The notes under the pieces are model-generated. The model saw only the letters and a program-made list of their open reading frames with translations, was not told the origin of the DNA and did not search any database. 34,002 nucleotides of DNA from an uncultured bacterium (GTDB taxonomy: Bacteria; Verrucomicrobiota; Kiritimatiellia; CAIKKV01; CAIYGI01). A program made the translations under genes and the position numbers. Shown here piece after piece: positions 199 through 16,422 of the stretch. How positions within the stretch are numbered: the first letter of the stretch is position 1; each line of letters starts with the position of its first letter. The stretch covers positions 1 through 34,002 of the forward strand of contig CAIYGI010000072.1 of the NCBI GenBank assembly GCA_903925685.1, read 5' to 3'.

Positions 199-1398
199 AT
201 GGAACGTAATCGGGTGGTCATAACGGGCCTGGGCGTTTTGGCTGCGAACGGTTTGGATGTCGAATCTTTTTGGCGCACGCTGCTGGCTGGCGAGAGTGGA
301 ATAGGCCCGATCACGCTCTTCGATGCCCATGATTTGCCGAGTCGGATTGCCGGTGAATTGCCGGGTTTCGATCCCTTGAAGTTGTTGAATTCCTCAATGA
401 AACCGCGCCGGATGGGGCGTTTCACCCAAATGGCACTGATTGCCGCCAAGCAGGCTTTTGCAGATGCCCAACTGGATGACAAACTCTTAAAAACTCCGCG
501 CATTCCGATCGTCATGGGGGTCAGCACCTCGGCGATGGATGTGCGTGAATTACCAGCCCGCGCCTATTCGGCCATCACCGGCATACCTCACGCTTGCACC
601 AGCACCATTGCCTACACCTATCATCTTGATGCCCGGTTGTTGACCGTCTCGGACGGTTGCGCATCCTCTCTGGATGCCATCGCGCTGGCGGCGGAAATTG
701 TTCGCGGCGGACAGGCGGACTGGGCCGTCGCTGGCGGCTCCGATGGCGCCATTACGCGGTACGTGTTCGAATGCATGAGTCAGGCGCGCAAATTATCCAC
801 CCGTAACGACGATCCCCGGCGCGCCAGCCGACCCTTCGATCGCCTGCGGGATGGCGGCGTGATCTCCGAAGGCGCCGGCATTGTGATTCTTGAAAATCTG
901 GAGCATGCCCTGGCGCGCGGGGTGCGGCCCTATGCCGAAATCGCCGGCTATGGAAGTTGGGCGGATCCGTGCGACGGCGAGGAAGGCGGCGGCATGGCCC
1001 GCGCCATGCAACTGGCGCTGGCCAACGCCGGCCGGCGGGCGGAGGACGTGGATCACATCAGCGCCCACGGTCCCGGCGACCCGCACATGGATGCGCTTGA
1101 AAGCAGGATGATCAAACAGGTCTTTGGACGGCGGGCGCACCAGATTCCCGTGACATCCATCAAGGGGGCCACCGGCAATCCCATGGGCGCGGGCGGCGTA
1201 CTTCAGACCATTGCCGCCGCCCTTTCGCTTCGGCACGGGCTTGTGCCTCCCACCGCCAACTATGAGGAGCCCGATCCTGAATGTGACCTGGACATTGTGT
1301 CCCGACAGGCGCGCCGCCAGGCCATCCGCAGCGTTCTGGTCAACACCCACGGCTTCGGGCGTGGCAACAGCAGCATGCTTCTCGACCGCTTCGAATGA
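199..1398 (+). CDS. Beta-ketoacyl-ACP synthase-like (KAS I/II type) condensing enzyme
   Basis: A 399-residue condensing enzyme of the thiolase fold, the usual length for KAS I/II. The N-terminus RVVITGLGVLAANG is typical of the family. The nucleophile is Cys154 in SDGCASSLDA, His290 lies in SAHGPGDPHMDALES (family form HGTGTxxND), Lys322 is in SIKGATGNPMGAGG, and a glycine-rich C-terminal NTHGFGRGNSSM is present. Oddly, the second catalytic histidine (GHxxGAAG in KAS I/II) is Asn327, giving a Cys-His-Asn set that resembles KAS III chemically but not in overall sequence. It should form carbon-carbon bonds between acyl groups, but no acyl carrier protein, reductase or other lipid gene is nearby, so substrate and pathway are unknown. 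No clear Shine-Dalgarno site precedes the ATG. The stop overlaps the next start by ATGA, which implies translational coupling to the histidine kinase. Confidence 0.88.
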   Translation: MERNRVVITGLGVLAANGLDVESFWRTLLAGESGIGPITLFDAHDLPSRIAGELPGFDPLKLLNSSMKPRRMGRFTQMALIAAKQAFADAQLDDKLLKTPRIPIVMGVSTSAMDVRELPARAYSAITGIPHACTSTIAYTYHLDARLLTVSDGCASSLDAIALAAEIVRGGQADWAVAGGSDGAITRYVFECMSQARKLSTRNDDPRRASRPFDRLRDGGVISEGAGIVILENLEHALARGVRPYAEIAGYGSWADPCDGEEGGGMARAMQLALANAGRRAEDVDHISAHGPGDPHMDALESRMIKQVFGRRAHQIPVTSIKGATGNPMGAGGVLQTIAAALSLRHGLVPPTANYEEPDPECDLDIVSRQARRQAIRSVLVNTHGFGRGNSSMLLDRFE

Positions 1399-3908
1399 CC
1401 ATGCAAGTCACACCCGTCATCCTGCTGTTCATTTTCACCACCACCCTCGGCATTGCTCTGGCGGTTATTTTTGCCAACCACCGGCGCGCGCAGAATCAAC
1501 ATTTCTTCATATTTTCCCTGACGCTGAATGCATGGGTGTTGTGCGTGCTGGGTGTTGTGCTGTCCAAACACGCGACCATGGCGGAATGGCTGATCCGTAC
1601 GGCGTCCTTCTGCGGCGTATTCATCCCGATTTCCTTCCTGCTGCTTTGCATGGCCATCAAATCCCCGGATAACAGCCTGCGGCAGCGTCTATACCGCGCC
1701 CGCTGGATACTGATGCTCGGCGCGCTGGTCGGACTGTTGTGTTTCACACCATTCTTCATGACCGGGGTGCGGATGCCGGTCGAAGCGCGATCCGTCTGGG
1801 AAGCTCCCCAAGCATTATACGGCATGGGATTCCTTTTTTTCATCCTCTATATGCCCTTGGCTTTTGGATTCACCGCATTCTATTTCATACGGTTGATGAT
1901 CATTTCGTCCGGCATGCAACGGGCCGAACTCCAGTTCACGCTGCTGGGCATGGGCAGTTCCGTGCCGATAGCGGTGCTGGTGCATGTGATTGCGGTGATC
2001 ACAGGGGACAATACGGTGCAGCAATTTGGTCCATTGTGTATCTTGCCCATGGACCTGATCATCGCCTATGGCGTGGCCACGAGGCGACTGATGGGGGTGG
2101 CGACGTTTCTGCAGAAAACTTTGGCCTACAGTCTGCTGGCTATATACTTGTCGGCGGTTTACTTCGCCGCCCTGACGGTCAGCCGGTTTGTGCTGCTGGG
2201 CATTTTCCCCAACCTCCCCGCCGGGATTGTCCACTGGCTGGCTACGCTCGCGATGGTTTTTGCCTATGTTCCCGCCCAGCGGTTCATGGAAAAAGTGGCC
2301 CAAAGGCTCTTTTTCGCGGCCACCTTCACGAACATGCACAAAACCATCCAGCATGCCAATCTGCTGCTGCAAGGCATTTCCACGCTGGATGAACTGCTGC
2401 GCCAATTTTACGTGCTGATCGCCCAGGCCTTTCATAGCGAAAAAAATCTGATCATGTTCAGGCAGGCGGATCTCTTTGCCCAGCGCTATCCGGAAAGCGC
2501 CGCTGCGCCACAGCTCACCATGGCCGCCGCGTCCGCCATCGTCCATCTTCTGGAAGCCAACCATGAGCCCGTGGTGGCCGATGTCTTGCAGCGGCGGGCG
2601 CCTTCTCCGTTATCCGACCAAGCCCTGCGGCAACTGGTCGAACTCAAGATCAACATGGCCGTCGGGATTTATTTGAAGAATCAGGTGGCGGGCATCCTGC
2701 TGCTCGGTCCGCGGGATTCCAAAAAAATGTACGACCGGCTGGAGCAGGACACCCTGCAGATCATGTGCAACGAACTGGCGGTCGCCATCGAAAACGCCAA
2801 GCTTTACACGGAAGTGCAAAACAGCAAAATCTACAACGAAACCCTGCTCGACCAGTTGACCAGCGGCGTGATCGCCATTAATGCGAGTCACACGATCACG
2901 GTCTTCAATCGCGAAGCGCGGCGTCTCACCCGGCTGACCGCCGCCGTGCTGAACCAACCCGCGACCCTGCTGCCCGCGCCGCTGACCAATGCGCTTTTGC
3001 GCACGCTGGAGACGCGCGCAGGCCTGCGCGATATGGATGTCCAGTTGGAATCCGAACATATGGATCCGATCGTGGTGCGGCTGACCAGCTCGATTTTCAT
3101 CGCGGAAGACGGAACGGTGCTGGGCGCCCTGCTGGTCATGCGGGACCAGACGATTTTGCGCCGGCTCGAGGATCAAATCCGCCGCAACGACCGCCTGGCC
3201 AGCGCGGGCACGCTCGCGGCCGGCATGGCGCATGAAATCAAGAATCCGCTGGTCACCCTCAAGACCTTCGCCCAGCTTCTGCCCGAACGCTACGACGATC
3301 CGGATTTCCGGCAGACCTTCTCCTCGCTGATCGGCAAGGAAGTCACCCGCATCGATTCGATCGTCAATCAACTGCTGAAATTCACGCGGCCCGTAAAGCC
3401 CAAATTATATCCCATGCAGTTGCATTCGACGATCGCCCATGTGCATAAATTGGTGGATCAATCCCTGAAACAGAACGGCGTCGTTCTAAAACAAGAATTG
3501 ACGGCGGATGGGGATTGGATTATGGGTGATAACGATCTTCTGGTTCAAGCTCTGTTGAACTTTTACCTAAACGCGGTGGATGCCATGGAAAAGGGAGGCG
3601 TGATCACGGTGCGCACGGAAATAGTCCGGATTGCTTCTTCCATGCGCGATCTGTTGGGCGCGCCCATAACGGAGCCCTACATTCGCGTGAGCATCCAGGA
3701 CAACGGCAGCGGAATCGCAGAATCCGACCTGCCGCATATTTTCGATCCCTTCTTCACAACCAAAGCCAAAGGCACCGGCCTGGGGCTTTCCGTATGCTAT
3801 AACATCGTCCAGGAACACGGCGGATCGGTCGAGGTCAAGAGCCGACCCGGCGTTGGCACGGTCTTCTTCCTGATGTTCCCGCTGACGACGGTGGAGTCTG
3901 CCGCATGA
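1395..3908 (+). CDS. Membrane sensor histidine kinase (7TM-GAF-PAS-HisKA-HATPase)
   Basis: An 837-residue sensor kinase. Residues 1 to about 290 hold around eight hydrophobic segments resembling the histidine kinase N-terminal 7TM region, ending in the typical AYGVATRRLMG. A GAF-like domain (about 315-475) follows, then a PAS-like domain (about 485-600) and a short coiled linker. The HisKA phosphoacceptor is His613 in GMAHEIKNPLVTLKTF. The ATPase domain shows the N box around Asn726 (NFYLNAVDAM), the G1 box at Asp769 (DNGSGI) and the G2 box KGTGLGLSVCYNI, so it looks catalytically intact. It is most like NtrB/AtoS-type kinases. The start ATG overlaps the ketosynthase stop and its own stop overlaps the next kinase start, so the three genes form one unit. 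No response regulator is in the window, so the output is unknown. The XrtA-associated PrsK kinases have a similar plan, but nothing else here supports that assignment. Confidence 0.92.
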   Translation: MTMQVTPVILLFIFTTTLGIALAVIFANHRRAQNQHFFIFSLTLNAWVLCVLGVVLSKHATMAEWLIRTASFCGVFIPISFLLLCMAIKSPDNSLRQRLYRARWILMLGALVGLLCFTPFFMTGVRMPVEARSVWEAPQALYGMGFLFFILYMPLAFGFTAFYFIRLMIISSGMQRAELQFTLLGMGSSVPIAVLVHVIAVITGDNTVQQFGPLCILPMDLIIAYGVATRRLMGVATFLQKTLAYSLLAIYLSAVYFAALTVSRFVLLGIFPNLPAGIVHWLATLAMVFAYVPAQRFMEKVAQRLFFAATFTNMHKTIQHANLLLQGISTLDELLRQFYVLIAQAFHSEKNLIMFRQADLFAQRYPESAAAPQLTMAAASAIVHLLEANHEPVVADVLQRRAPSPLSDQALRQLVELKINMAVGIYLKNQVAGILLLGPRDSKKMYDRLEQDTLQIMCNELAVAIENAKLYTEVQNSKIYNETLLDQLTSGVIAINASHTITVFNREARRLTRLTAAVLNQPATLLPAPLTNALLRTLETRAGLRDMDVQLESEHMDPIVVRLTSSIFIAEDGTVLGALLVMRDQTILRRLEDQIRRNDRLASAGTLAAGMAHEIKNPLVTLKTFAQLLPERYDDPDFRQTFSSLIGKEVTRIDSIVNQLLKFTRPVKPKLYPMQLHSTIAHVHKLVDQSLKQNGVVLKQELTADGDWIMGDNDLLVQALLNFYLNAVDAMEKGGVITVRTEIVRIASSMRDLLGAPITEPYIRVSIQDNGSGIAESDLPHIFDPFFTTKAKGTGLGLSVCYNIVQEHGGSVEVKSRPGVGTVFFLMFPLTTVESAA

Positions 3909-5932
3909 ATCCCCCGCTGAACGGCCTGCTTTATACCCAGGACGCCGCCTTGGTGCAGCGCCTGGGCGGATTGCTCAATGAAAGGGCCGCCCTCTACCAT
4001 GCGTGTACGCCGGCCCAGCTTGAAAAGCGGCTGGCGCAGGTTGGTCCCTCGCTGGTTCTGATGGATGCGCGGACCGACGCCTTTCCGGAATTGCTTGCGC
4101 GCTTGTGTCGCGCCGATCCGGGCCATGTGCTGATTGTGCTGGGCGAGCCCCGCTCCGACCCCGTTCTGGAAGCCGCGATGCAGAACGTGTTCGCGGTGGA
4201 ACTGCTCGAACCCGAAAGGATGCACTTTCAGGCGCTGGTTGGCCGCGGCTTCCGGCATCTGGAGCTCCAGCAGGAAAACGCCCTGCTGCGCGCGGATGCG
4301 CGGCGCGCGCCTCCGCCCCCGGCGGGGACGCCCGCCATGGGCATCGACACCGCCATGCCGGTGCAGTTTTTCGCCCGGGCCTTGCGGAATTTCGACAACG
4401 TTCCGGCCCTGGCGGAGAGCATCGTGGAAGGCCTGGCCGCGGCCGCGCGCGTAACGCGCGTCGGCCTTTTCGCCACCGGGCGCGCCGGCGACCGCTTCAA
4501 ACTGCGCGCCGGCGTGCGCTGCCTGGAAACCGCCCAGGCCCTGCAATATGAGGAAACCCATCCGTTTGTCTTATGGCTTGACCGCAACGCGCATCTGCTG
4601 ACGCGCGACGGGCTGGAATCAATCCGCGACACGGGCGAGCGGCTGGTGCTCAAGCAGGCGCTGGACGAAATGGGCGCGGAGGTCGTCGTGCCCCTGCTGG
4701 CCCGCGGATGCATTCTGGGGTGGTTTTTCGTTGGCCATCGGGCTACCGGCTGGCCCTATAATTACACGGATTTGGAAAATTTCACCGTGCTGGCGGAACA
4801 CATCGCCACCACCCTCGAAAACGCCCTGCTGTACGAAGCGATTGCCCTGCAGAAAACCCTGGCGGAAACCCTCCTGCATACCATGGAGGACGGTATTGTC
4901 GCGGCTGGCGAGGACGGCGTGGTTCGCTGGTTCAACCGGGCGGCGGAAACTATCCTGGATCTGCCCGCCGCCGAGGTGCTGGGCCATGCGGTGGAAGTGC
5001 TGGGCAGCCGCTTGAGCGACCTGTTCCGGCGCACCATGGCCCGGGAGGAGGTGGAATCTCCACAGCAGTGGCGCCTGACCTGGAACAAGAAACTGGTGAA
5101 CGTGGAAATCCGGCCGCTGATCGAAGACCGCGCCTGTCTCGGCGCCGTGGCCCTGATTCGCGATGCCTCCGCCGAGCAGCGTATGTCCGAACGGGAAGAA
5201 CAGTTGCGGCGCGGCGCCTTCTGGAATGACCTGGCCGCCAGCATGTCGCATGAAATCCGCAATCCGCTTACGGCCATCAAGACCTTTGCCCAGCTTCTGC
5301 CGGAACGTTACAACGACCCGGAATTCCGCGACGAATTCAGCAAGCTGGTGAATCACGAAGTGGGCCGTCTGACCGGCTTGATCGATCAGATCAATTCCTT
5401 CGCCCATCCAACGCCGTTGAAACAGGCGCCCCTGGACATCTTCGCGCCGATGAAAACGGCCATCAAACTGGCTTCCGCCCGCCACCCCTCCGCCAACATC
5501 AAGCTGGAATTGCTGGCGGAAGGTGTCCTGCCGCCGGTCATCGGCGATGAACAGGCCCTTGCCGAGGGCTTCAGCCACCTGCTCGTGAATGCCCTGGAGG
5601 CCTTGCAGGGACGCAAAAACGGCGAAATCGCCTTTACCGCCCAGCGCGGGTTCGGAAATGACGGGCAGGAAGTCGTGCGCGTAATTATCCGGGACAACGG
5701 CCCCGGCATTCCGCCCGACATTCGAGCCAACGTTTTCTCGCCATTTTGCACCACCAAGGCTCGCGGCATGGGTCTCGGCCTCTCCATAGCCCAGCGCACC
5801 GTCTTCGATCATAACGGCCAGATCAATATCGATACCTCCGAACGCGGCACCCGTATTTCCATCGACCTGCCGGTCCACAACCGGGCCGGAACGTTTGGCG
5901 ACGAAGATCAGGGCAAAAGCGTCCCGAAATAG
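3905..5932 (+). CDS. Cytoplasmic sensor histidine kinase with pseudo-receiver, GAF and PAS domains
   Basis: A 675-residue soluble kinase with no membrane segment. Residues 1 to about 125 look like a receiver domain: Asp54 in LVLMDAR is at the phosphorylation site, but the N-terminal acidic pair and the conserved lysine are not apparent, so it is probably a pseudo-receiver. A GAF-like domain spans about 145-310 and a PAS domain about 320-435. The phosphoacceptor is His449 in SMSHEIRNPLTAIKTF. The ATPase boxes include NALEAL, Asp597 in DNGPGI, and GMGLGLSIAQRT. Its HisKA region is very close to that of the upstream kinase (both have KTFAQLLPERY followed by DPxFR), which suggests a tandem duplication and perhaps heterodimers. 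It begins with an ATGA overlap with the upstream kinase and ends about 130 nt before the giant protease gene. The partner regulator is not in the window. Confidence 0.9.
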   Translation: MNPPLNGLLYTQDAALVQRLGGLLNERAALYHACTPAQLEKRLAQVGPSLVLMDARTDAFPELLARLCRADPGHVLIVLGEPRSDPVLEAAMQNVFAVELLEPERMHFQALVGRGFRHLELQQENALLRADARRAPPPPAGTPAMGIDTAMPVQFFARALRNFDNVPALAESIVEGLAAAARVTRVGLFATGRAGDRFKLRAGVRCLETAQALQYEETHPFVLWLDRNAHLLTRDGLESIRDTGERLVLKQALDEMGAEVVVPLLARGCILGWFFVGHRATGWPYNYTDLENFTVLAEHIATTLENALLYEAIALQKTLAETLLHTMEDGIVAAGEDGVVRWFNRAAETILDLPAAEVLGHAVEVLGSRLSDLFRRTMAREEVESPQQWRLTWNKKLVNVEIRPLIEDRACLGAVALIRDASAEQRMSEREEQLRRGAFWNDLAASMSHEIRNPLTAIKTFAQLLPERYNDPEFRDEFSKLVNHEVGRLTGLIDQINSFAHPTPLKQAPLDIFAPMKTAIKLASARHPSANIKLELLAEGVLPPVIGDEQALAEGFSHLLVNALEALQGRKNGEIAFTAQRGFGNDGQEVVRVIIRDNGPGIPPDIRANVFSPFCTTKARGMGLGLSIAQRTVFDHNGQINIDTSERGTRISIDLPVHNRAGTFGDEDQGKSVPK

Positions 5933-6063: not shown

Positions 6064-9000
6064 GTGCGTAAGAATGCTACAATTCCGATGCAAGATTGGG
6101 CGAACATGAGTTCTCAATATTTAGAAAGTCACCGCGCTGGCGGCTGGCGGGGGTGGAATAGGCCCTTTTGGGCGGCGTTTTGCCTCGCGCTGATCTGGCC
6201 CATGGCGGGACGGGCCGTTTCCGTCGAGTGGCTGGGCGGAACCAACCTGGACGGGCGGGTGGCCGTGCGCTGGATGACGTCCGATGAACCTATCGAACTT
6301 GCCTTTCGCGTCGAACGTCAGGATGCCGATACCGGACGCTTTACGGCGGTGCTGCCCGAGCCGCTGCCAGCCCGCGGTTCGGCGCGCGGCGCGATCTATA
6401 CGCTGATCGATCCCAATGCGCCCGTGGGCGTTCCGGCAACCTATCGCCTGGCGGCCCTGCTGGACGATACGAACACGATCGCCTTCGGCCCCTATCCCGT
6501 ATTGGTTCCAGTTGACAAACTCCGCCTGCAGTCGAAACTCGCCGATACCGATCCATCGACCCTTTTCAGCGCCACCGACCTGCCGCTGACGGATTTCGAA
6601 CTGCAGCGCAACCAGGAACGGCAGGCCGAATTGTTGACGGTCCAGGCCATGCTGGCGGCGTCGGCTCCTGGCGCGCGCAAGAAAATGGCCACCGTCGGCG
6701 TGGCTACGCTCGCGGGTGGCGCGACCCCGCTGGCCGGCGCGGGCGCGGTGCAACGCCTGAAGATCGGGGTCATGACCACCGGCGTGTACCGGCTCTCGGC
6801 CGCCTATCTGGCCGCCGCCTTCAACCTTGCCGAGAGCGATCTGCAGACAGCCATCCGGGCGACAAAAGTGGCGCTCAGTTGCCAGGGACACGATGTGGCC
6901 TGGGCGGCCGACACCAATGCCAGCGCCGTGCTTTTTTACGGCATCCCCGCCGTTTCCCGCTACACAACCGAGAACATCTACTGGCTTAGCCTCACCAATG
7001 GCTTCAACCTGCTGCCGCGTCCAACCGCGCCGGCCGCGCAGGCCGACACCAACCAGTCCTTTTTGACGACGCTGCATTTCGAGAGCAGCAACCACTTTTC
7101 GTATGCCCAAGGCCGTTCATTGGATGGACCCCTTGTGGTGAGCGGGACTTTGCCCCAATCCTCCACGGTTTCGCTAACATTCAACCTGATTGAGGCGGTG
7201 TATACCAACGCAACAATTACGGTCATTCCCACGCTGATTTCGCGCATGACCGAAGCCTCGCCCGATACGCATAATGTGGGCGTGCTGGTCAACAGGTCCA
7301 GCGTCACTAATGTCGCTTGGAACGGCGAGGCGCTCATGAATCCGGTCGCGCAGTTCTCCCAGTCGATACTTTCCAATGGCGTCAACACGCTCCTTTTGAC
7401 CAACGCCACCCGAACATCGGCGGGGTACGTGCTTTATGCGGGTTTCGACGTAACCTACTGGCGGACTTATCGCGCCAGCGGAGACGCGCTGGGTTTCGTC
7501 CCGTCGGGCAACACCACGGTGACAATCTGGGGTTTCACAAACGGTCCGCCAACGATCTGGGATGTGACGGATCCGTACGCGCCGTCTTGGATTGAGGGCG
7601 CGTCGAACTGCTTCACCAACGGTGCCTGGCAAGCAACCTTTACGCCAGGGGCGCCAACCAACCGTTTCTTCGCCTTCTCGTCCGCCGGTTATCTCGCGCC
7701 GTCACGCCTCAAAGCCGAAGGCGCGGCGACAGACCTGTGCGCCGCGACAAATGGCGCCGACTGGGTGATGGTGATCCCGCCCTTGTACCGGCTGGTAAAT
7801 TTCCGTAACCAGGCGGAGCGCCTGGCGGCCTGGCGCTCCGCGCAGGGCTTGTGTACCATGGTGCTGGACTACGAAGACCTTTGCGATGCCTTCCGTTACG
7901 GGCTCGACACTCCCTTTGCGATTCGCGATTTTGTGGGCGCATCCGCCCGGTGGATTACTCCACCACGTTTCCTCGTGCTGGGCGGGCATGGCGACTACGA
8001 CTACCTGTGGAACATTACGAACCAGTGCCTGCTACCGCCCTACATGGTGCCGTCCACGGACGTGCCTTACAGTGAAGGGGCGGGGTTCTTCAGCGCCGAT
8101 TCGGGACTGGTGGACGCCAATGGAGACGGCATGCCGGATCTGGCGGTAGGACGCATTCCAGCGGTATCGAGCAACGAATTCGCGCGTTTCGTGGATAAAG
8201 TCATCACGTACGAGTCGCCGGCGGACAAGAAAATGCGCATCGAAGTCATCGCCGATGACCCGAATTCCAGCAGCGGTAAGTATGCTTTCGATACGGGTTG
8301 CGACAGCATGTCCGCCTGTATTCCGACCAATACTTACACCGTTTTCAAGGACTATGCTTATTCCGGAAACTTTTTGACACTCAGGTCTGCCGTTACAAAC
8401 CACTTGTGGAACGGCGTGGGGTTGATGAGTTTCTTTGGTCACGCAACCACTTGGAGCATTGCCGCTGGAAGCGGAGAACTCCTTAACAGCCAATATGATT
8501 TTCGGTGGCCATTCCCAACTATTGGGGTGGGGTTGGCCTGCTCTCTGAACAGATACGAATATCCGGGGGCTGTCATTGGAAGTAACCCATTGCCTTCGTT
8601 TGGCGAAGTGGGTGTCGCGTCGACCAATGCGTTCTCCGCCTTCTTTGCCTGTTCCGGTCCCGCGGATGTCGCCGGGGATCGAGCGATCGGCGAGGAATTC
8701 TACAAGTCCATGTTCGTGAACAAGGCGGCGCGGCTGGGCGAGGCCACGCAGACGGCGATACGCGGATACTGGTCGCAACTGATGAGGTTTCAATACATGG
8801 TGGAGATGTACACCCTGCTGGGCGATCCGGGAATGGTGATTGACCAGAAACGGCTGACGGTGTCCAGCGCCGCGGGGCAGGCGTGGCCACCCGTCGGGAG
8901 CGACTGGATCGGGGACTTCACCAATCTCGCCTGCGCGGTCACGAACGGCGTGCTGACCCAGGGGACCACGCAATTGGTCTGCACGGGCTGGAGCGGCGCC

Positions 9001-12000
9001 GGCAGCGCGCCGACCTCGGGCACGACCACCAATACCGGTGTCTTTTTCGTGACGCAGGACGCGACCGTACACTGGCTCTGGAAAACCCAGTACCTGGTGA
9101 CGGCCGGCGCAGACTCCAATGGCGCCGTGTGGGGTTCCACCGGTTGGGTGGACCGCGCCGCCACCGCGCGCCTTACCGCCGTGCCGGCCGACGGATACCG
9201 CTTCCTGGGCTGGATAGGCGCTGTCGACTCCACGAACAATCCGCTCAATCTCGTTGTAACCGACGCCGTCGCGGTGGCCGCCACGTTCACAAACAATGCG
9301 CCGGATTCCTGGACCATCACCGCGTTCGCCGGTGCGCATGGCACGGTGAATCCCGCCGGCGGTATCCAGGTTGACAGCAATGGCGCCAGCTTCGCGATTA
9401 CGCCCGACGCATATTATCACGTCGCCGATTTGACGGTGGATGGTGTGTCTGTTGGCGCTGCGACGAATTACGCTTTCACCGCGGTCGACAGCAATCATAC
9501 ACTGGCGGCTGCTTTTGCGGCGGACACGCGGACGCTGGACGTCGTTGCGGATCGCGGCCAGGGCGACCCCTCCACGGGCAACCATGCGGTGGACTATGGC
9601 GCCGGACTCGCCGCGCGGGTGACCAATAGCGTGGTCTACGAGGGCGTCAACGCCACGCAATACGTGTGCGCCGGATGGGCCAGGACGGGCAGCGCGCCGG
9701 CGTCCGGCACAAACGCCAGCACTGAACTTTTCACGATTACGAACGACACAACCGTTGCCTGGTTCTGGCGGACCAATGTTTTCCTGAACGTCGCCGCCGG
9801 CAACGGCGGCAGCGTGGATGCGGCCAGCGGCTGGCGCGCGCTGGGCGCCGCCGTGACCATTACGGCCACGGCCGCCGCGCATTATGATTTCGACCATTGG
9901 GAAGGAGACACGAACGCCACCGTGTCGTTGTCCAGCAATCGCGCGACGTTTGTCATGGATCGCGCGCGCGGACCGCTGACCGCCGTTTTTTCGCCGCGGC
10001 ATTATACGTTGACCATCGGCGCACAGCCATACGGCACGCCCGACCCCGCGGCGGGCGTCACCACCAACGATTTAAATGCCGTGCTACGCTGCGGCATCTC
10101 CGGATCGCCGGTCGAACTCAGCCCGCAGACCACGCAATTCGTCTGCCTGGGCTGGACGGGAACCGGCAGTGCGCCGGCATCGGGCCCTTACACCTCCACG
10201 GTATTTCGGATGACCGCCGATTCGACGCTCGATTGGTTCTGGGCGACCAATCTGTGGCTGAGCGTGATCACCAACGGTCCTGGTATGGTGGATGTGGCAT
10301 CCGGTTGGCAGGCATTGGGGAGCAACGTGACGTTGACGGCGACTGCCGGCGCGCACTGGCATTTCTTCGAGTGGACGGGCGACATCGAAGGCGGAGGCTC
10401 GACGGGCGCGGCGCTGACCGTGCCGATGAACCATCCGCGCGCGGTGACGGCGAACTTTGCCTGGGACCAGTATACGCTGACCGTGGCGTCGCCCTGTGGC
10501 CAGACCGAACCGGCGCCGGGAGTGTACACGAACGATTACGGAACGCAGGTATCGGCCGGAGTGACCAATACGCCGTACGAAATAGCGGCGCTGGCGACGC
10601 AGTTGGTTAGTGTGGGCTGGAGCGGCACGGGCAGCGCGCCGGCCTCTGGGACGGAAACGAACACCGGATTCTTTGCGCTCACCAACGCTGCGACGGTGGA
10701 TTGGCTGTGGCATACGAATCTCTATCTGGCGGCCTCGGTGTCGGGCTTCGGCACATTGGACGTAGCCTCCGGCTGGCAGCCGCGCGGAACGACAGTGGTG
10801 GTGCGCGTGACCCCCGACTACAAGAACCATCTTGTCGGCTGGAGCGGCGGCACGAACGGCTGCGTGATGGGTTCGAACTCGATTGCCGTGCCAATGACCG
10901 CGGCGCGTCAGATCGAAGCCCTTGTGGAAACCAACAGCCAACAGAAACTGACGGTGGTATCGGACGTGGGCCAAACCGAGCCTCTGCCCGGACAGTACGA
11001 ATACGATTTCGGCGCGGAAGTGGCCAGCGGTGTGACGAATGCGATTCTGTACGCGGGGCTGGATGCCACTCAGTATGTGAGCATGGGATGGACCGGCACC
11101 GGCAGCGCGCCGGCGTCTGGCGTTGGAACGAACACCGGGAACTTTAATCTGACATTACCCTCGGTGGTGACCTGGCTCTGGCGGACCAATTATCACCTGG
11201 GCGTAACGGTTACGGGCGGCGGAACGACGGACGTCGGCATGGCGTGGGTAGAAGCTGGGACGACCGCCACCGTACACGCCGTGGCAGACCCGCACCGGCA
11301 CTTTGCCTTCTGGAGCGGCGATCTCGATGGCGCCTCGATGACGGGCGCCGTCATCAGCGTGGTCATGGACCGGCCGCGCGCAGTGACGGCGGTCTTTACC
11401 AGCAACGAGTGGTACACGTTCACGGTTGCCTCGGCCCACGGCGCGGGCGATCCGGCGCCGGGCGCGACGTCGCACGAGTGGGGCACGAGCCTGTCGGCCG
11501 GATTAACGAACGCGACGGTCTACGACGGCGTGCTGGCGACGCAGTATGTCAGCCTGGGCTGGACCGGTACCGGCAGCGCGCCGGCATCGGGAAGCAGCAC
11601 GAACACCGGTTCGTTTGCGATTACCAACGACACGACGCTCACATGGCTTTGGAAAACCAATTATTATCTTGATCTGAGCGTGGAAGGCAACGGCGGAATT
11701 AACCAAACCTCGCACTGGTGCATGCTCGGCTCCAACGTGGTTGTGCTTGCCAGCAACGATCTGCAACATGTATTCCTCGACTGGGGCGGGGATACCAACG
11801 GTTGCGGGATTACCAACAACAGCCTGACGGCGGCTATGAATCAGTTCCGCCGCATCGTGGCGCGTTTCGATGCCGTGACGGCGGAGGCTTATATCCCCGG
11901 GGCAAATGCGGTCACGTCGTCCGTGCCGATGTACCAGAACAACATCAACCTTTACCCGATACCAGGCCATCGGGACCCGGGCTTTGGAATCTGTTTCGCG

Positions 12001-13794
12001 ACCTACGTGGCCGACGTGCTGGGTTATTGGGACCGGACCACGTATACGAACAATGGCATCCAGTACTGGAACCTCGTGGATCACGGAGTGGCGCCGTTGC
12101 GCCAGCCGGTAGGCGCCGGACAGGAAGACGCCGACGTTTACGGGCTGATCCTGCCTGTCGGGACGATGTATTACACGACCAACATGCCGTCGGACGGTGG
12201 GTGGGACGATGTCGTAATCCGGCAGCAGTGCAACACCAATCTCGGTCTGGCGTTCGGTTCGACCTTGTATCCGGGTCAGATAAAGGCCTCGACTCCCGAC
12301 CAGTTTGTAACTTTGTACACGCAGATCGTGGTCGAGGTTGACGCAGGCCATCCCGTGGGAGCCGGCTTCTATGGCAGCACATATTTCGGCAGCGCCCACC
12401 AGGTGCCGGTGCTGGGTTACGTGCGTATGTCGAATATGGTTGACAGCCTGCTGTACATCCATCGTAATCAATCCCCTGCGCGCTCGGAATACATCAACTA
12501 TTTCGCCGCGTCCAGCGGCACGGAACGCGACATGGCGACGATCATTCCCGGGGGTGTTCCGGTGGACGGATATCACCGCGCCGGAATCGGAACGAACGCC
12601 GCGACGGCGGCTGCGCTAAATCCCGACGATCCATACGGATTCCGGCAGACGCATTGCTTTACCTCCACCGCTGACGCGGTCTGGATCGCCCTGACCAACC
12701 TGGCGGGCCGCCAATACACGGTGGACATCTGCCACCGCGGCACCAATGCCGACACGCTGCTGACGCTGCTGGCCGGGGATAGACAAACGGTGGTGGCGCA
12801 GGGAAGCACGCAACTGACGTGGCGCTGTTGGACGACGGGCGCCAACTACCTGGTTGTCACGCCCGGCTCCGGAGTGGCCAATGGGGCGTGGGCCTGGGCG
12901 AACTTCGATGTCGAGGTGGATTATACGAACGTTAATCCGTGGCTGGTGGTCGCGAGTCCGGTCGGCGGAACCTGGCCGACGGTTGGAACGAACGCCGGCT
13001 TCACCAACGGGGCGGTCATCTCGGCGAGCGTGACCAATAGTCCGTTCACGGTCGGCGGCGGAACCCAATACGTTTGCGCGGGCTGGACGCGGGACGGCAG
13101 TGCGCCGGGGTCGGGAACAGGCGCCAGCACAGGTCCTTTTACGCTCACCAACGATACAATCCTGGCCTGGCAGTGGACGACGAACCTGTTTTTGTTGGTG
13201 CAGACCACCAATGGCCCGGGCATCACCGATCCGACCAACGGCTGGTTCCAGTCCGGGACCAATACGCCGGTGACGGCGCAACCGGGGGACTACTATCACT
13301 TCGCAGGATGGTCGGGCGATACCAACGGGATAGTGTCGGTGGTCAGCAACCTGGTGAACGTGCCTATGACTGTTCCGCGCGTGCTGACAGCCTCATTCCA
13401 GCCCAACCTGGCGACCAACCAGACTCCCGAGTGGTGGCTGGCGGCGCATGGACTGACCAATGGAGGATTCAATGCCGGCGCCATGGACGATGCGGATGGC
13501 GACGGGATGCCGAATTGGGCGGAGTACCGGGCAGGCACGGATCCTACGAACCGGTTTTCGCTGCTGATGTTTGACAGCGTCGCTCCGGAAGCCAACAGCA
13601 CCTGGATCGTGATGCGGTGGCAAAGCGCGGGCGGCAAATCCTACCGTCTCGAACGCGGAACCAATCTGACGGACCAGGCGCCGTTCAGCACCCTTTTGCG
13701 GACAAACATCACCGCTACCGCGCCCATGAATGTTGAGACCGACAAGACAGCGGTTGGAGAAGGCCCATGGTTCTATCGGATTGAACTGGAGTAG
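6064..13794 (+). CDS. Giant secreted protein with C25 (gingipain-type) and C39-like cysteine peptidase domains and InlB-like repeats
   Basis: A 2576-residue exported protein. The GTG at 6064 gives the longest form; ATGs at 6088 and 6106 also precede the hydrophobic signal segment (WAAFCLALIWPMAGRA) and no Shine-Dalgarno site decides between them. Residues about 215-330 resemble the N-terminal region of C25 peptidases (GVYRLSAAYL, QGHDVAW). The catalytic region, about 565-930, has FFGHATTW with His793 and GLACSLNRYEYPG with Cys826. The 33-residue spacing equals that of His211 and Cys244 in gingipain RgpB. Repeats of about 155 residues follow. A C39-like papain-fold domain (about 1943-2140) has Cys1977 in GICFATYVADVLGYWD, His2112 in GSAHQVPVLGY and possibly Asn2135. 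A pre-peptidase C-terminal (PPC)-like domain (about 2188-2270), one more repeat, a calcium motif DDADGDGMPNWAEY and a terminal beta domain end the protein. No anchor or sorting signal is obvious. It probably degrades or processes extracellular protein. Confidence 0.85.
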   Translation: MRKNATIPMQDWANMSSQYLESHRAGGWRGWNRPFWAAFCLALIWPMAGRAVSVEWLGGTNLDGRVAVRWMTSDEPIELAFRVERQDADTGRFTAVLPEPLPARGSARGAIYTLIDPNAPVGVPATYRLAALLDDTNTIAFGPYPVLVPVDKLRLQSKLADTDPSTLFSATDLPLTDFELQRNQERQAELLTVQAMLAASAPGARKKMATVGVATLAGGATPLAGAGAVQRLKIGVMTTGVYRLSAAYLAAAFNLAESDLQTAIRATKVALSCQGHDVAWAADTNASAVLFYGIPAVSRYTTENIYWLSLTNGFNLLPRPTAPAAQADTNQSFLTTLHFESSNHFSYAQGRSLDGPLVVSGTLPQSSTVSLTFNLIEAVYTNATITVIPTLISRMTEASPDTHNVGVLVNRSSVTNVAWNGEALMNPVAQFSQSILSNGVNTLLLTNATRTSAGYVLYAGFDVTYWRTYRASGDALGFVPSGNTTVTIWGFTNGPPTIWDVTDPYAPSWIEGASNCFTNGAWQATFTPGAPTNRFFAFSSAGYLAPSRLKAEGAATDLCAATNGADWVMVIPPLYRLVNFRNQAERLAAWRSAQGLCTMVLDYEDLCDAFRYGLDTPFAIRDFVGASARWITPPRFLVLGGHGDYDYLWNITNQCLLPPYMVPSTDVPYSEGAGFFSADSGLVDANGDGMPDLAVGRIPAVSSNEFARFVDKVITYESPADKKMRIEVIADDPNSSSGKYAFDTGCDSMSACIPTNTYTVFKDYAYSGNFLTLRSAVTNHLWNGVGLMSFFGHATTWSIAAGSGELLNSQYDFRWPFPTIGVGLACSLNRYEYPGAVIGSNPLPSFGEVGVASTNAFSAFFACSGPADVAGDRAIGEEFYKSMFVNKAARLGEATQTAIRGYWSQLMRFQYMVEMYTLLGDPGMVIDQKRLTVSSAAGQAWPPVGSDWIGDFTNLACAVTNGVLTQGTTQLVCTGWSGAGSAPTSGTTTNTGVFFVTQDATVHWLWKTQYLVTAGADSNGAVWGSTGWVDRAATARLTAVPADGYRFLGWIGAVDSTNNPLNLVVTDAVAVAATFTNNAPDSWTITAFAGAHGTVNPAGGIQVDSNGASFAITPDAYYHVADLTVDGVSVGAATNYAFTAVDSNHTLAAAFAADTRTLDVVADRGQGDPSTGNHAVDYGAGLAARVTNSVVYEGVNATQYVCAGWARTGSAPASGTNASTELFTITNDTTVAWFWRTNVFLNVAAGNGGSVDAASGWRALGAAVTITATAAAHYDFDHWEGDTNATVSLSSNRATFVMDRARGPLTAVFSPRHYTLTIGAQPYGTPDPAAGVTTNDLNAVLRCGISGSPVELSPQTTQFVCLGWTGTGSAPASGPYTSTVFRMTADSTLDWFWATNLWLSVITNGPGMVDVASGWQALGSNVTLTATAGAHWHFFEWTGDIEGGGSTGAALTVPMNHPRAVTANFAWDQYTLTVASPCGQTEPAPGVYTNDYGTQVSAGVTNTPYEIAALATQLVSVGWSGTGSAPASGTETNTGFFALTNAATVDWLWHTNLYLAASVSGFGTLDVASGWQPRGTTVVVRVTPDYKNHLVGWSGGTNGCVMGSNSIAVPMTAARQIEALVETNSQQKLTVVSDVGQTEPLPGQYEYDFGAEVASGVTNAILYAGLDATQYVSMGWTGTGSAPASGVGTNTGNFNLTLPSVVTWLWRTNYHLGVTVTGGGTTDVGMAWVEAGTTATVHAVADPHRHFAFWSGDLDGASMTGAVISVVMDRPRAVTAVFTSNEWYTFTVASAHGAGDPAPGATSHEWGTSLSAGLTNATVYDGVLATQYVSLGWTGTGSAPASGSSTNTGSFAITNDTTLTWLWKTNYYLDLSVEGNGGINQTSHWCMLGSNVVVLASNDLQHVFLDWGGDTNGCGITNNSLTAAMNQFRRIVARFDAVTAEAYIPGANAVTSSVPMYQNNINLYPIPGHRDPGFGICFATYVADVLGYWDRTTYTNNGIQYWNLVDHGVAPLRQPVGAGQEDADVYGLILPVGTMYYTTNMPSDGGWDDVVIRQQCNTNLGLAFGSTLYPGQIKASTPDQFVTLYTQIVVEVDAGHPVGAGFYGSTYFGSAHQVPVLGYVRMSNMVDSLLYIHRNQSPARSEYINYFAASSGTERDMATIIPGGVPVDGYHRAGIGTNAATAAALNPDDPYGFRQTHCFTSTADAVWIALTNLAGRQYTVDICHRGTNADTLLTLLAGDRQTVVAQGSTQLTWRCWTTGANYLVVTPGSGVANGAWAWANFDVEVDYTNVNPWLVVASPVGGTWPTVGTNAGFTNGAVISASVTNSPFTVGGGTQYVCAGWTRDGSAPGSGTGASTGPFTLTNDTILAWQWTTNLFLLVQTTNGPGITDPTNGWFQSGTNTPVTAQPGDYYHFAGWSGDTNGIVSVVSNLVNVPMTVPRVLTASFQPNLATNQTPEWWLAAHGLTNGGFNAGAMDDADGDGMPNWAEYRAGTDPTNRFSLLMFDSVAPEANSTWIVMRWQSAGGKSYRLERGTNLTDQAPFSTLLRTNITATAPMNVETDKTAVGEGPWFYRIELE
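8851..13407 (+). repeat. Seven InlB-like protein repeats, about 465-477 bp each
   Basis: Within the giant protease, copies begin near 8851, 9532, 10000, 10470, 10945, 11413 and 12937. The last is separated from the others by the C39-like and PPC-like domains. Each copy carries a core of the form GW-x-x-x-GSAPxSG, then a TNxxxLxVxxxGxG strand, a SGW segment and a closing VPM-like strand before the next copy. A short extra unit lies at about 9301-9530. The DNA core GGCAGCGCGCCGGC or a close variant recurs at about 9001, 9688, 10165, 10630, 11101, 11572 and 13096, so spacing in the central block is 465-477 bp. Such bacterial beta repeats usually act as stalks or adhesive segments. Confidence 0.8.
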
Positions 13795-13863: not shown

Positions 13864-14160
13864 ATGACAGTGGCCATCAATGAAACATACCGGCGCATGC
13901 CGCAGGTAGTGGCTCGCGAAGTGGCGGGTGAACGGCTATTGATACCGATTCACGGCAAGCTGGCGGACATGCGGCAGGTCTTTACGCTCAATGCCGTGGC
14001 GGCCCGCATCTGGGAGTGGATGGACGGCGGTAAAACGCTGGCGCAGATCGCCGCGGCGGTCGAGGAGGAATTCGAGGTGGAGCAGGGGCAGGCACAGGCC
14101 GATGTTTGCGAACTGGCCGGTGATTTATTGAAGGCGGCGTTGATCGAACCGGTGGTCTGA
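13864..14160 (+). CDS. PqqD-like RiPP recognition element protein
   Basis: A 98-residue protein of the PqqD family, which folds as a winged-helix RiPP recognition element that binds precursor leader peptides and presents them to radical SAM enzymes. Visible features are the N-terminal strand region (RMPQVVAREVAGERLLIPIHGKLAD), the family-typical LNAVAARIWEWMDGGKTLAQIAAAV, and a C-terminal helix with VCELAGDLLKAALIEPV. The length is normal for a stand-alone PqqD. The start at 13864 is set by a strong Shine-Dalgarno site. The stop is immediately followed by the ATG of the radical SAM gene, so the two are translationally coupled. PQQ synthesis itself is unlikely because no pqqA-, pqqB- or pqqC-like gene is near. 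I infer that it binds the leader of the small peptide encoded at 15247-15390. Confidence 0.88.
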   Translation: MTVAINETYRRMPQVVAREVAGERLLIPIHGKLADMRQVFTLNAVAARIWEWMDGGKTLAQIAAAVEEEFEVEQGQAQADVCELAGDLLKAALIEPVV

Positions 14161-15228
14161 ATGCAGTGCGCGGATCCAGAGCAGATGCAAGCCGGAGGAT
14201 TTTTTCCCCGGCTCGTTCGCAAGGCCGAGGCCGCCGGGGTGCCGATTTCCGGTACCTTCGACCTGACCTGGCGCTGCTGCTTTCGCTGTCTGCACTGCTA
14301 TGCCGGCCCGGCGCGCGACCGGCGCGGCGAATTGACCACGGCTGAAGCCCTGGATTTGCTGGACCAGATGGCGGCGGCAGGCTGCCTCGATCTGCTTTTC
14401 AGCGGCGGCGACCCGTTGCTGAGGCGGGATTTCGAGCGTATCTACCGCCATGCCCGCGAATGCGGGATGTTCCTCAAGGTGTTCACCAACGCCGCCCTCG
14501 TCAGCGAACGCATTGCCGACCTGTTTGCCGATTATGCGCCGGACTACGTTGAAGTATCGCTCTACGCGGCCACCGACGCCACGGCGGCCATTGTCACCGG
14601 CGACCCGCAGGGGCTGCGCCGCACACTGCGCGGCATAGACCGGCTGCGGCGGCGCGGCGTGCGGGTGCGTCTGAAATCGGTGTTGATGGCCACGAATGCC
14701 GCCGAATTTCCCGCCATCGAGGCGCTGGCCACATCGCTGGGTCTGCCCTTCAGGATGGACGTGGCGATTCTGCCGCGGCTGAACGGCGACATGGCCCCGC
14801 TGGCCCTGCGGGTGCCGGCGGAAGAAGCGGTGCGCATCGAATTCTCGGATCCCGAACGACGGCAAAAATGGGCGCGATATCTGGAGCAACTGCGTAAAAT
14901 GCCGCCCACCAACGCGCGCTTTGTCTGCAAGGCCGGCCGCACCGATTTTCATCTGGATCCCTACGGAATACTGCGTCCCTGCGTGATGTTCCCGGGTGGC
15001 GGATCCAACGCGCGCGTCCTGTCGTTTTCGGAGGCCTGGCGGCAGGTTTCGACGCTGGTTAAAAAAGCTACAATTGCAGTTGACGTTTCATGCCGGTCGT
15101 GTAACAATAATGCCTTGTCAGGTTCATGTAGTGCAGTTGCAGAGCTTGAAACCGGATTTGCGGATCGGTGTTCGGGTTATTTGTGTGACCTGGGCAGGGA
15201 GAGGGCTGATTTAGTGGGTAGTCAATGA
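14161..15228 (+). CDS. Radical SAM peptide-maturing enzyme with SPASM domain
   Basis: A 355-residue radical SAM protein. The catalytic cluster motif CxxxCxxC is Cys39-Cys43-Cys46 (WRCCFRCLHCYAG), in a segment DLTWRC typical of PqqE-like enzymes. LLFSGGDPLLRRDF supplies the SAM-contacting GGDP. The C-terminus has seven cysteines that fit a SPASM domain binding auxiliary iron-sulfur clusters: Cys256-x12-Gly-x4-Cys274 matches the classical first half, then Cys311-x2-Cys314, Cys323, Cys337 and Cys342, with wider spacing than the textbook CX2CX5CX3C. The enzyme should use a 5'-deoxyadenosyl radical to modify a peptide side chain or backbone. It begins at the base after the pqqD-like stop and ends 18 nt before the small peptide gene. 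By eye its last 180 nt are richer in A and T than the rest. The modification chemistry (thioether, C-C crosslink, epimerisation or other) cannot be read from the sequence. Confidence 0.92.
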   Translation: MQCADPEQMQAGGFFPRLVRKAEAAGVPISGTFDLTWRCCFRCLHCYAGPARDRRGELTTAEALDLLDQMAAAGCLDLLFSGGDPLLRRDFERIYRHARECGMFLKVFTNAALVSERIADLFADYAPDYVEVSLYAATDATAAIVTGDPQGLRRTLRGIDRLRRRGVRVRLKSVLMATNAAEFPAIEALATSLGLPFRMDVAILPRLNGDMAPLALRVPAEEAVRIEFSDPERRQKWARYLEQLRKMPPTNARFVCKAGRTDFHLDPYGILRPCVMFPGGGSNARVLSFSEAWRQVSTLVKKATIAVDVSCRSCNNNALSGSCSAVAELETGFADRCSGYLCDLGRERADLVGSQ

Positions 15229-15234
15229 TAATTT

Positions 15235-15240
15235 GGAGGT
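15235..15240 (+). promoter_or_regulatory. Strong Shine-Dalgarno site for the precursor-like peptide
   Basis: GGAGGT lies 6 nt before the ATG at 15247. It is one of the best ribosome binding sites in the window and is the main reason to accept this short reading frame as a gene. Confidence 0.8.
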
Positions 15241-15246
15241 GGGTGT

Positions 15247-15390
15247 ATGAAGAAGACACAGAAAGCCAAGTACGAAAAGCCCCAAGTTAAGGCCGTGGAA
15301 CTCGCCACGGAGGAAGTCCTGAGCAGCGGTTGCCGTGAGATAGATAGGTGCGACGTCAACGGTAGCTTTAAGGGCGCAGACGGCTCTTAA
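15247..15390 (+). CDS. Candidate RiPP precursor peptide, 47 residues
   Basis: This small gene encodes a lysine-rich N-terminal half (MKKTQKAKYEKPQV) and a C-terminal half with two cysteines. Tyr9-x2-Pro12-x-Val14 matches the YxxPxL-type leader motif that lasso peptide recognition proteins bind. Residues 15-25 form an acidic, probably helical stretch (KAVELATEEVL). The likely core begins near Ser26: SSGCREIDRCDVNG and then SFKGADGS, with Cys29 and Cys35 spaced CX5C and a C-terminal Ser47. There is no Gly-Gly cleavage site, no PqqA-type Glu-x3-Tyr and no MftA-type Val-Tyr end. It lies just after the pqqD-like and radical SAM genes and is followed by two hairpins and an HprK-like kinase gene. 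I infer that it is the substrate of both enzymes; the mature product is unknown. It is too short to appear in many automatic annotations. Confidence 0.8.
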   Translation: MKKTQKAKYEKPQVKAVELATEEVLSSGCREIDRCDVNGSFKGADGS

Positions 15391-15418
15391 GCCCGGTTCA
15401 GTTCTTGCGGCGAGTTTG

Positions 15419-15444
15419 CCGGACGTGGAAGTGGTCCGGTTTTG
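15419..15444 (+). terminator. First hairpin after the precursor-like peptide gene
   Basis: CCGGAC at 15419-15424 and GTCCGG at 15434-15439 form a perfect 6-bp stem with a 9-nt loop, followed by TTTTG. It may act as a weak intrinsic terminator or 3' stabiliser 28 nt after the peptide stop. Confidence 0.4.
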
Positions 15445-15452
15445 AGTTTGCG

Positions 15453-15489
15453 AACCGTTTGCGAAGAAAATTCGCAAACGGTTTTCTTT
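15453..15489 (+). terminator. Strong hairpin (13-bp stem) between peptide and kinase genes
   Basis: AACCGTTTGCGAA at 15453-15465 pairs perfectly with TTCGCAAACGGTT at 15471-15483 across a GAAAA loop, and TTCTTT follows. This is the most stable-looking hairpin noticed in the window. It probably ends or attenuates the pqqD-radical SAM-peptide transcript, so that the kinase and downstream genes are made at a lower level. An in-frame TTG at 15442 would place this hairpin inside the kinase gene, which argues for the later GTG start. Confidence 0.65.
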
Positions 15490-15513
15490 ACCATTGTTGT
15501 CAAGGGGCGCATT

Positions 15514-16422
15514 GTGTCAGCACAGCGATTCTGGATCGGTGGTTTGGCTTACACTTACGAGGGGGATTTCGATCTCGATGTGACGATGTGGCCGTCATTC
15601 TATCGGGGCTTCGATCAGCCGCAACCCCTTCCGGACGGTGATCAACTGGTATGGCGTGTGCATTTGGCCGGCTGTGGCGCATCCAGACCGGCGGGGACGC
15701 CAGAGTTGGAATCGGAATCCTGGAGCCTGTGGCGGCAAGGAATGGTGCGTACCATTGCATTCGACGCTGCGCCGCATGCTCCTCCGCGCTGGACGGCGGC
15801 GATGGATCTGCGGGCGGGACGCGCGGAAGTGCGCTGGGATTCGCGTATGGAATACGCCCGGAGTAGCGGCGCGCTGGTCGAAAATCTGCTGGCGTTTAAC
15901 CTTGACCGTTTCTTGACGTTGTACCGTCTGGCCGAATCGGGCAGCGGGATGCTTGTGCATGGCGCCGCGACCGATTTCAGCGGGCAGGGGTGGCTTTTCA
16001 TGGGGCGTTCGGGTCATGGCAAGAGCACTTTATCCAATCTGCTCCATCAAACCCAAACAGCACTTGTGTTGAGCGACGAAAGGGCCGTCGTACGCAAATT
16101 GAAGAACGGTTTCTGGCTTTGCGGTACACCCTGGCCCAGCAGCGCCGGGTTTGCAAAAGCCGCCGTGTGCCCGCTGCGCGGGCTGGTGTTTCTGGAACAT
16201 GGGACCCAGAACGAGCTGATCCCGCTGAAGCCGCCGGAGGCCCTGAGGCGACTGCTCGTTGTGTCGTCATGTCCATGGCACGATAAGGATATCTTCGATC
16301 CGCTCGTAACGCTGGGCGGTGAATTGGCTCAAACATTGCCGGCCTGGGAATTGCGCTTCCTGCCCAACGCGAGCGTGACGGAGTTTTTGCGCGAACGGCT
16401 GGCGGGCAAACGATCGGGGTGA
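15514..16422 (+). CDS. HPr kinase-like protein (HprK-related kinase) of the RiPP locus
   Basis: A 302-residue protein from GTG 15514, chosen because AAGGGG lies 6 nt upstream and the earlier in-frame TTG at 15442 would read through the terminator hairpin. The C-terminal half has an HprK-type P-loop, GRSGHGKST (Gly164 to Lys170 and Ser171), preceded by the family-typical LVHGAATDF and followed by LVLSDERAVV, which resembles the HprK switch region. The N-terminal 140 residues are unrecognised. I do not see the C-terminal signature of true HPr kinase/phosphorylase, and no ptsH gene is nearby, so control of the sugar phosphotransferase system is unlikely. Related kinases occur with PqqD-like proteins and in some lasso peptide clusters, where the paeninodin kinase phosphorylates the C-terminal serine of the precursor. 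I infer that it phosphorylates the 47-residue peptide or its product. The hom gene starts 6 nt downstream. Confidence 0.78.
   Translation: MSAQRFWIGGLAYTYEGDFDLDVTMWPSFYRGFDQPQPLPDGDQLVWRVHLAGCGASRPAGTPELESESWSLWRQGMVRTIAFDAAPHAPPRWTAAMDLRAGRAEVRWDSRMEYARSSGALVENLLAFNLDRFLTLYRLAESGSGMLVHGAATDFSGQGWLFMGRSGHGKSTLSNLLHQTQTALVLSDERAVVRKLKNGFWLCGTPWPSSAGFAKAAVCPLRGLVFLEHGTQNELIPLKPPEALRRLLVVSSCPWHDKDIFDPLVTLGGELAQTLPAWELRFLPNASVTEFLRERLAGKRSG

Follow-up and report, generated by a model that had tools for sequence, protein, structure and literature searches.

A candidate peptide-modifying cassette with a radical SAM enzyme and an HprK-like kinase, adjoining a secreted C25 protease gene in Kiritimatiellia

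The window analysed here, meaning the whole stretch of 34,002 nucleotides, carries a four-gene cassette that, judging by its sequence and by structural models, probably represents a new RiPP class. A PqqD-like protein would bind the leader of a short precursor peptide, a radical SAM (rSAM) enzyme would modify its cysteine, an HprK-like kinase would phosphorylate its terminal serine, and a C25 protease would process the product or serve as its partner. The original prediction had proposed a peptide natural product that combined rSAM modification with phosphorylation; two patterns among related loci support this proposal, namely that cysteine in the peptide tracks the presence of an rSAM gene, and that the terminal serine is conserved.

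All four genes were found consecutively on the plus strand, as predicted, with intact and open frames. The first, pqqD (13864..14160), encodes a PqqD-like leader-peptide recognition protein of 98 aa (Pfam PqqD, E = 1.6e-16, over the cut-off), which is the single PqqD match in the source genome. The rSAM gene (14161..15228) encodes a radical SAM/SPASM maturase of 355 aa, with CxxxCxxC at residues 39-46 (Radical_SAM, E = 3.8e-21, over the cut-off); its start abuts the pqqD stop, in keeping with the tight spacing described beforehand. The strong ribosome binding site reported for the peptide gene was recovered by direct reading of the sequence as GGAGGT (15235..15240, plus strand), and is followed by the precursor gene itself (15247..15390, plus strand). 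This encodes 47 aa, MKKTQKAKYEKPQVKAVELATEEVLSSGCREIDRCDVNGSFKGADGS, with a YEKPQV leader motif, a conserved Cys29, a second cysteine at position 35 and a terminal Ser47. The kinase gene (15514..16422, plus strand) specifies an HprK/lasso-kinase-like peptide kinase of 302 aa from a GTG start, and contains H149, GRSGHGKST and SDER. The PqqD, CxxxCxxC and P-loop motifs were all intact, as had been claimed; the SPASM cysteines, included in the same claim, are arranged as CX2CX8C, which is a non-canonical spacing. The peptide-kinase intergenic region contains a terminator-like hairpin (15453..15489, plus strand), recognised from sequence and folding, with 13 perfect pairs and then a T-rich run. 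A terminator was rejected as a general feature of the cassette because the corresponding gap is only about 25 nt in locus L034.

On the 3' side, the cassette is followed by ordinary housekeeping genes, a homoserine dehydrogenase and an aspartokinase-type amino acid kinase. Neither an exporter nor a dedicated leader protease was present within the four cassette genes. On the 5' side, the original prediction did not count a giant gene (6064..13794, plus strand) that ends 69 nt before pqqD and is probably the first gene of the operon. Its product contains a Peptidase_C25 domain (nt 7798-8835) and InlB B-repeats. Directly 5' of this gene, two tandem sensor histidine kinases, preceded by a ketoacyl synthase, were observed at 1395-5932.

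The distribution of the cassette was surveyed within one phylum, where the genomes of relatives are mostly fragmented. When the rSAM protein was searched in 388 genomes of that phylum, relatives were found in one genome of the same genus at 92% identity and in about two dozen genomes of the same class at 30-42%; by direct protein scan of genome contigs, the sister genome was the sole match. The best matches listed in a plasmid search were all PqqE, MftC or generic rSAM proteins. A second set of loci was gathered with a kinase profile, and the neighbourhoods were annotated with profiles made in this analysis. By profile search, the kinase family was present in 80 of 346 genomes of the same class, and across the phylum just four of its matches, all distant, fell outside that class. 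At 47 loci, a total of fifty pqqD genes had rSAM and then kinase behind them in the same orientation; three of these loci carry two pqqD genes, and L059 carries several rSAM genes. The order pqqD-rSAM-peptide-hprK was kept in about 47 loci, from many families of one GTDB class. A recognisable peptide lay between rSAM and hprK in nearly all loci with room for one, so the conserved four-gene neighbourhood that the original prediction asked for was found. Homologous loci devoid of a peptide gene, which it had named as grounds for refutation, were looked for, and nearly every locus encoded a peptide. Within the same class, L059 and L127 combine three rSAM genes with a kinase and pqqD, in a layout resembling SynChlorMet. 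Elsewhere, a near-identical 47-aa ORF, MAKSDAFAKTSKKRFEVADASEVKLGVGGTFKAEQIGTLGINSGNV(E/K), occurs 5' of orphan kinases at L128 (1195-1338) and at L130 (minus strand), with no pqqD detected.

The peptides form a family with more than 50 relatives, and no Pfam or NCBIfam model covers them. Comparison with the sister genome gave a dN/dS of about 0.1 over 43 codons, indicating purifying selection; for these two reasons, a chance ORF was ruled out and the peptide gene was accepted as real. Tyr, Pro and Cys were invariant in the aligned peptides, which share a layout of YxxPx(V/L/I) near the N-terminus, a hydrophobic stretch, the Cys, usually then Lys, and a variable tail mostly bearing one to three further Cys. 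Such a short encoded precursor, with conserved leader, variable core and adjoining tailoring enzymes, is what is generally expected of a RiPP. One cassette (L043, 7791-8207) contains two tandem peptide genes, whose leaders match and whose cores differ. Between the window (15247-16422) and the sister genome (L032, 4395-5536), dS was 0.74-0.82 for peptide and kinase, and 0.20-0.27 for pqqD, rSAM and homoserine dehydrogenase, as if peptide and kinase had been swapped together as one unit.

The residue addressed by the rSAM enzyme was approached through cassettes with and without it, using a peptide scan that did not take Cys as a criterion. Peptides contained Cys at 47 of 47 loci with rSAM alongside, while all eight cassettes comprising pqqD and kinase without rSAM (seven with C25 upstream) encoded Cys-free YxxP peptides. 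For this co-occurrence, Fisher p was 8e-10, although loci were counted as independent despite being related, and the value is thereby too strong. Since the presence of Cys tracks that of rSAM, this pattern points to Cys as the target of the enzyme. A kinase and a Cys peptide were found apart from rSAM at L104, L106, L107, L060 and L145, where the genomes, in those cases checked, have such an rSAM elsewhere. The sister pqqD-peptide-kinase cassettes without rSAM (L129, L131, L132, L133, L134, L142 and L144) mostly have C25 upstream. Their Cys-free peptides have LDxGGNYV(S) in common, after the YxxP motif. At one rSAM-less locus (L123, 1478-4179, genome G223), two tandem peptides closely resemble the Cys type, with Gly or Pro at the Cys position.

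By profile search, the closest solved relatives of the rSAM enzyme were SkfB (5e-34) and PqqE (1e-24), and its AF2 model (pLDDT 90.5) matched the folds of PqqE, SkfB, SuiB and anSME, with PqqE at the top. Some SPASM cysteines are absent in several members of the family. Both the relatives of the enzyme and the co-occurrence with Cys agree with a putative sactipeptide or ranthipeptide assignment, in which the bond formed would be a thioether. SkfB, from that group, and the streptide enzyme SuiB are among the closest solved relatives, and SkfB likewise has a Cys-containing precursor; the present system differs from both in having PqqD as a protein of its own and a kinase besides, and there is no matching precursor family.

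The kinase of the window matched HPr kinase and ScmC weakly, ScmC being its best NCBIfam match, and both profiles and an AF2 model (pLDDT 90.9) gave the fold of HPr kinase and PEP carboxykinase (PEPCK). Its family has the H, GxxGxGKS and DD catalytic motif, together with the HPr kinase fold, of HprK-like lasso kinases. H149, the GxSxxGK loop and D188 were conserved throughout, or nearly so, in 22-25 relatives; in the window, the second motif Asp is replaced by Glu (SDER, i.e., D-E for D-D). The H, P-loop and Asp positions are part of the catalytic motif reported in PMC10368454 for BsfK, a lasso kinase, and for characterised kinases related to it. Lasso-peptide kinases recognise a C-terminal Ser, and this was the final residue in 48 of 53 peptides, including that of the window, in a scan that did not require Ser; another ended in Thr, and Ser made up 7% of internal tail residues. 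When the peptides were placed in 42 similarity groups, 37 were exclusively Ser-ending and two were partly so. Given the lasso-kinase motif and the fold shared with HPr kinase, the leading reading of sequence and model is that the kinase phosphorylates the terminal Ser. The terminal Ser is not universal, however, because the peptide of the sister genome ends in Tyr and four others also lack it. The kinase of that genome has Lys instead of the nearly invariant Arg following the Asp pair. The conserved terminal Ser is also absent in rSAM-less cassettes, though a kinase is present there, and the residue phosphorylated by the related kinase BsfK is Ser3, not the terminal one.

The upstream protein (2576 aa) has a C25 domain scoring far above the Pfam cut-off (E = 8.8e-47; 160.6 bits against 23), InlB repeats and, by inspection, an N-terminal signal peptide. 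A homologous C25 gene, in the same orientation as pqqD, preceded it at 27 of 47 rSAM loci and at 8 of 9 rSAM-less loci; contig ends truncate many of the other rSAM loci. The gap between C25 and pqqD had a median of 21 nt, and several start and stop codons overlapped; the C25 gene probably belongs to the same operon as the cassette. Of 27 cassette genomes, 25 had C25, as against 3 of 25 cassette-free genomes; this tally takes in strong matches alone and omits three kinase-positive genomes. A second type of cassette (type II, with LED-motif peptides) mostly lacked an upstream C25. In sharing the domain, the protein resembles gingipains and other C25 peptidases; it differs from them in being paired with a peptide-modifying operon, and no account of such a pairing was found in the part of the literature covered. 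On this evidence, C25 may act in extracytoplasmic processing of the peptide, or may be regulated by it. We suggest, tentatively, that a secreted C25 protein of gingipain type, with a caspase fold, is functionally linked to the RiPP pathway, such that the radical-modified and Ser-phosphorylated peptide is released by C25, controls it or tags it, and that rSAM is an optional module on a C25-PqqD-peptide-kinase core. Two candidate points of contact were discarded. The C-terminal tail of C25, considered as a specific partner site, proved to be a generic tail with DPDGDG-type repeats. Cleavage at the C-K motif of the peptide, as a gingipain Lys site, is not favoured because rSAM-less peptides have no C-K, and yet they also have C25.

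It is also conceivable, if unlikely, that the peptide is an intracellular phosphopeptide signal or regulator, for example of C25 or its secretion, and that the kinase targets a non-terminal Ser. HPr kinase is itself regulatory, the cassette has no transporter, C25 shares an operon with both types of cassette, with and without rSAM, and what the rSAM-less peptides have in common is GGNYVSP rather than a terminal Ser; all of these would suit such a role. Against it, a conserved leader joined to a variable core is typical of exported RiPPs, and the signal peptide of C25, as identified by inspection, makes direct contact with a cytoplasmic peptide unlikely.

The combination of a PqqD-type chaperone, a SPASM rSAM enzyme resembling PqqE or MftC and a short peptide is equally the layout of PQQ and mycofactocin loci, and PqqE was the top fold match. 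The cassette might then make a redox-cofactor precursor, with rSAM and kinase producing a small excised moiety for another enzyme, and the association with C25 being incidental. This was considered distinctly improbable. The mycofactocin (MftC) score of 91 bits is far under its curated cut-off of 265, as is the PqqE score of 81.5 bits under its cut-off of 381, and PqqD reached 29.8 bits against 46, for which reasons membership of either system was rejected. The cores differ widely among species, whereas the modified core of a cofactor precursor stays fixed; no recurring dehydrogenase partner was seen; nothing in PQQ or mycofactocin corresponds to the conserved terminal Ser; and the kinase and C25 set the cassette apart further.

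The remaining alternative, a lasso-like system with its cyclase and leader protease encoded elsewhere in the genome, deserves hardly any credence, since the YxxPx(V/L) leader, PqqD-like B1 protein and HprK-like kinase that it shares with kinase-bearing lasso loci are set against an rSAM enzyme and conserved Cys that are foreign to lasso systems, scores of 33.8 and 31.2 bits for lasso PqqD families with cut-offs of 70 and 80, no match to the B2 leader protease (Transglut_core3, PF13471) in a genome that is 96% complete, and no asparagine-synthase-like cyclase among the window genes scanned. The original prediction that the locus belongs to neither the lasso, PQQ nor mycofactocin class was thus upheld: scores fell below curated cut-offs, and the genome lacks the lasso leader-protease family.

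Two known systems remain instructive by analogy. Kinase-bearing lasso loci (paeninodin PadeK, ThcoK, SyanK and BsfK) have, as here, a discrete PqqD-like protein and an HprK-like kinase that relies on the same set of catalytic residues; the YxxPx(L/V) leader motif is reported for Bradymonadales precursors, and the likeness between the precursors lies mainly in the C-terminal Ser. The presence of C25 is a further difference from these loci. SynChlorMet cassettes bring together an HprK-like protein (ScmC), a PqqD-like protein (ScmD) and SPASM rSAM enzymes (ScmE and ScmF), but have two rSAM enzymes where the present cassette has one. Membership was rejected, with ScmC, ScmD, ScmE and ScmF at 23.9, 27.1, 67.6 and 45 bits against cut-offs of 125, 100, 400 and 400. 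To our knowledge, neither the peptide family nor C25 is a part of SynChlorMet. By analogy, both systems are conceptual precedents for the cassette; no described peptide natural product or paper combining all of its parts was found in the portion of the literature covered.

In the favoured RiPP pathway, the PqqD-like protein would bind the 47-aa precursor via the YxxPx(V/L) motif, as its family and that motif suggest, and hand it to the SPASM rSAM enzyme. This enzyme would modify the conserved Cys that co-occurs with it, most likely by putative thioether-type cross-links, and the kinase would phosphorylate the terminal Ser. The secreted C25 protease, to judge by its genomic association, probably cleaves the exported peptide or is the target of the finished product.

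If true, what would define this RiPP class is that each peptide is modified in two ways, at Cys by radical chemistry and at the terminal Ser by phosphorylation. Cassettes with and without rSAM would amount to a natural experiment that predicts the residue touched by each enzyme, and the more than 50 peptides are directly testable substrates. The sharing of an operon with a gingipain-family protease suggests that C25 proteins have a role beyond nutrition and virulence.
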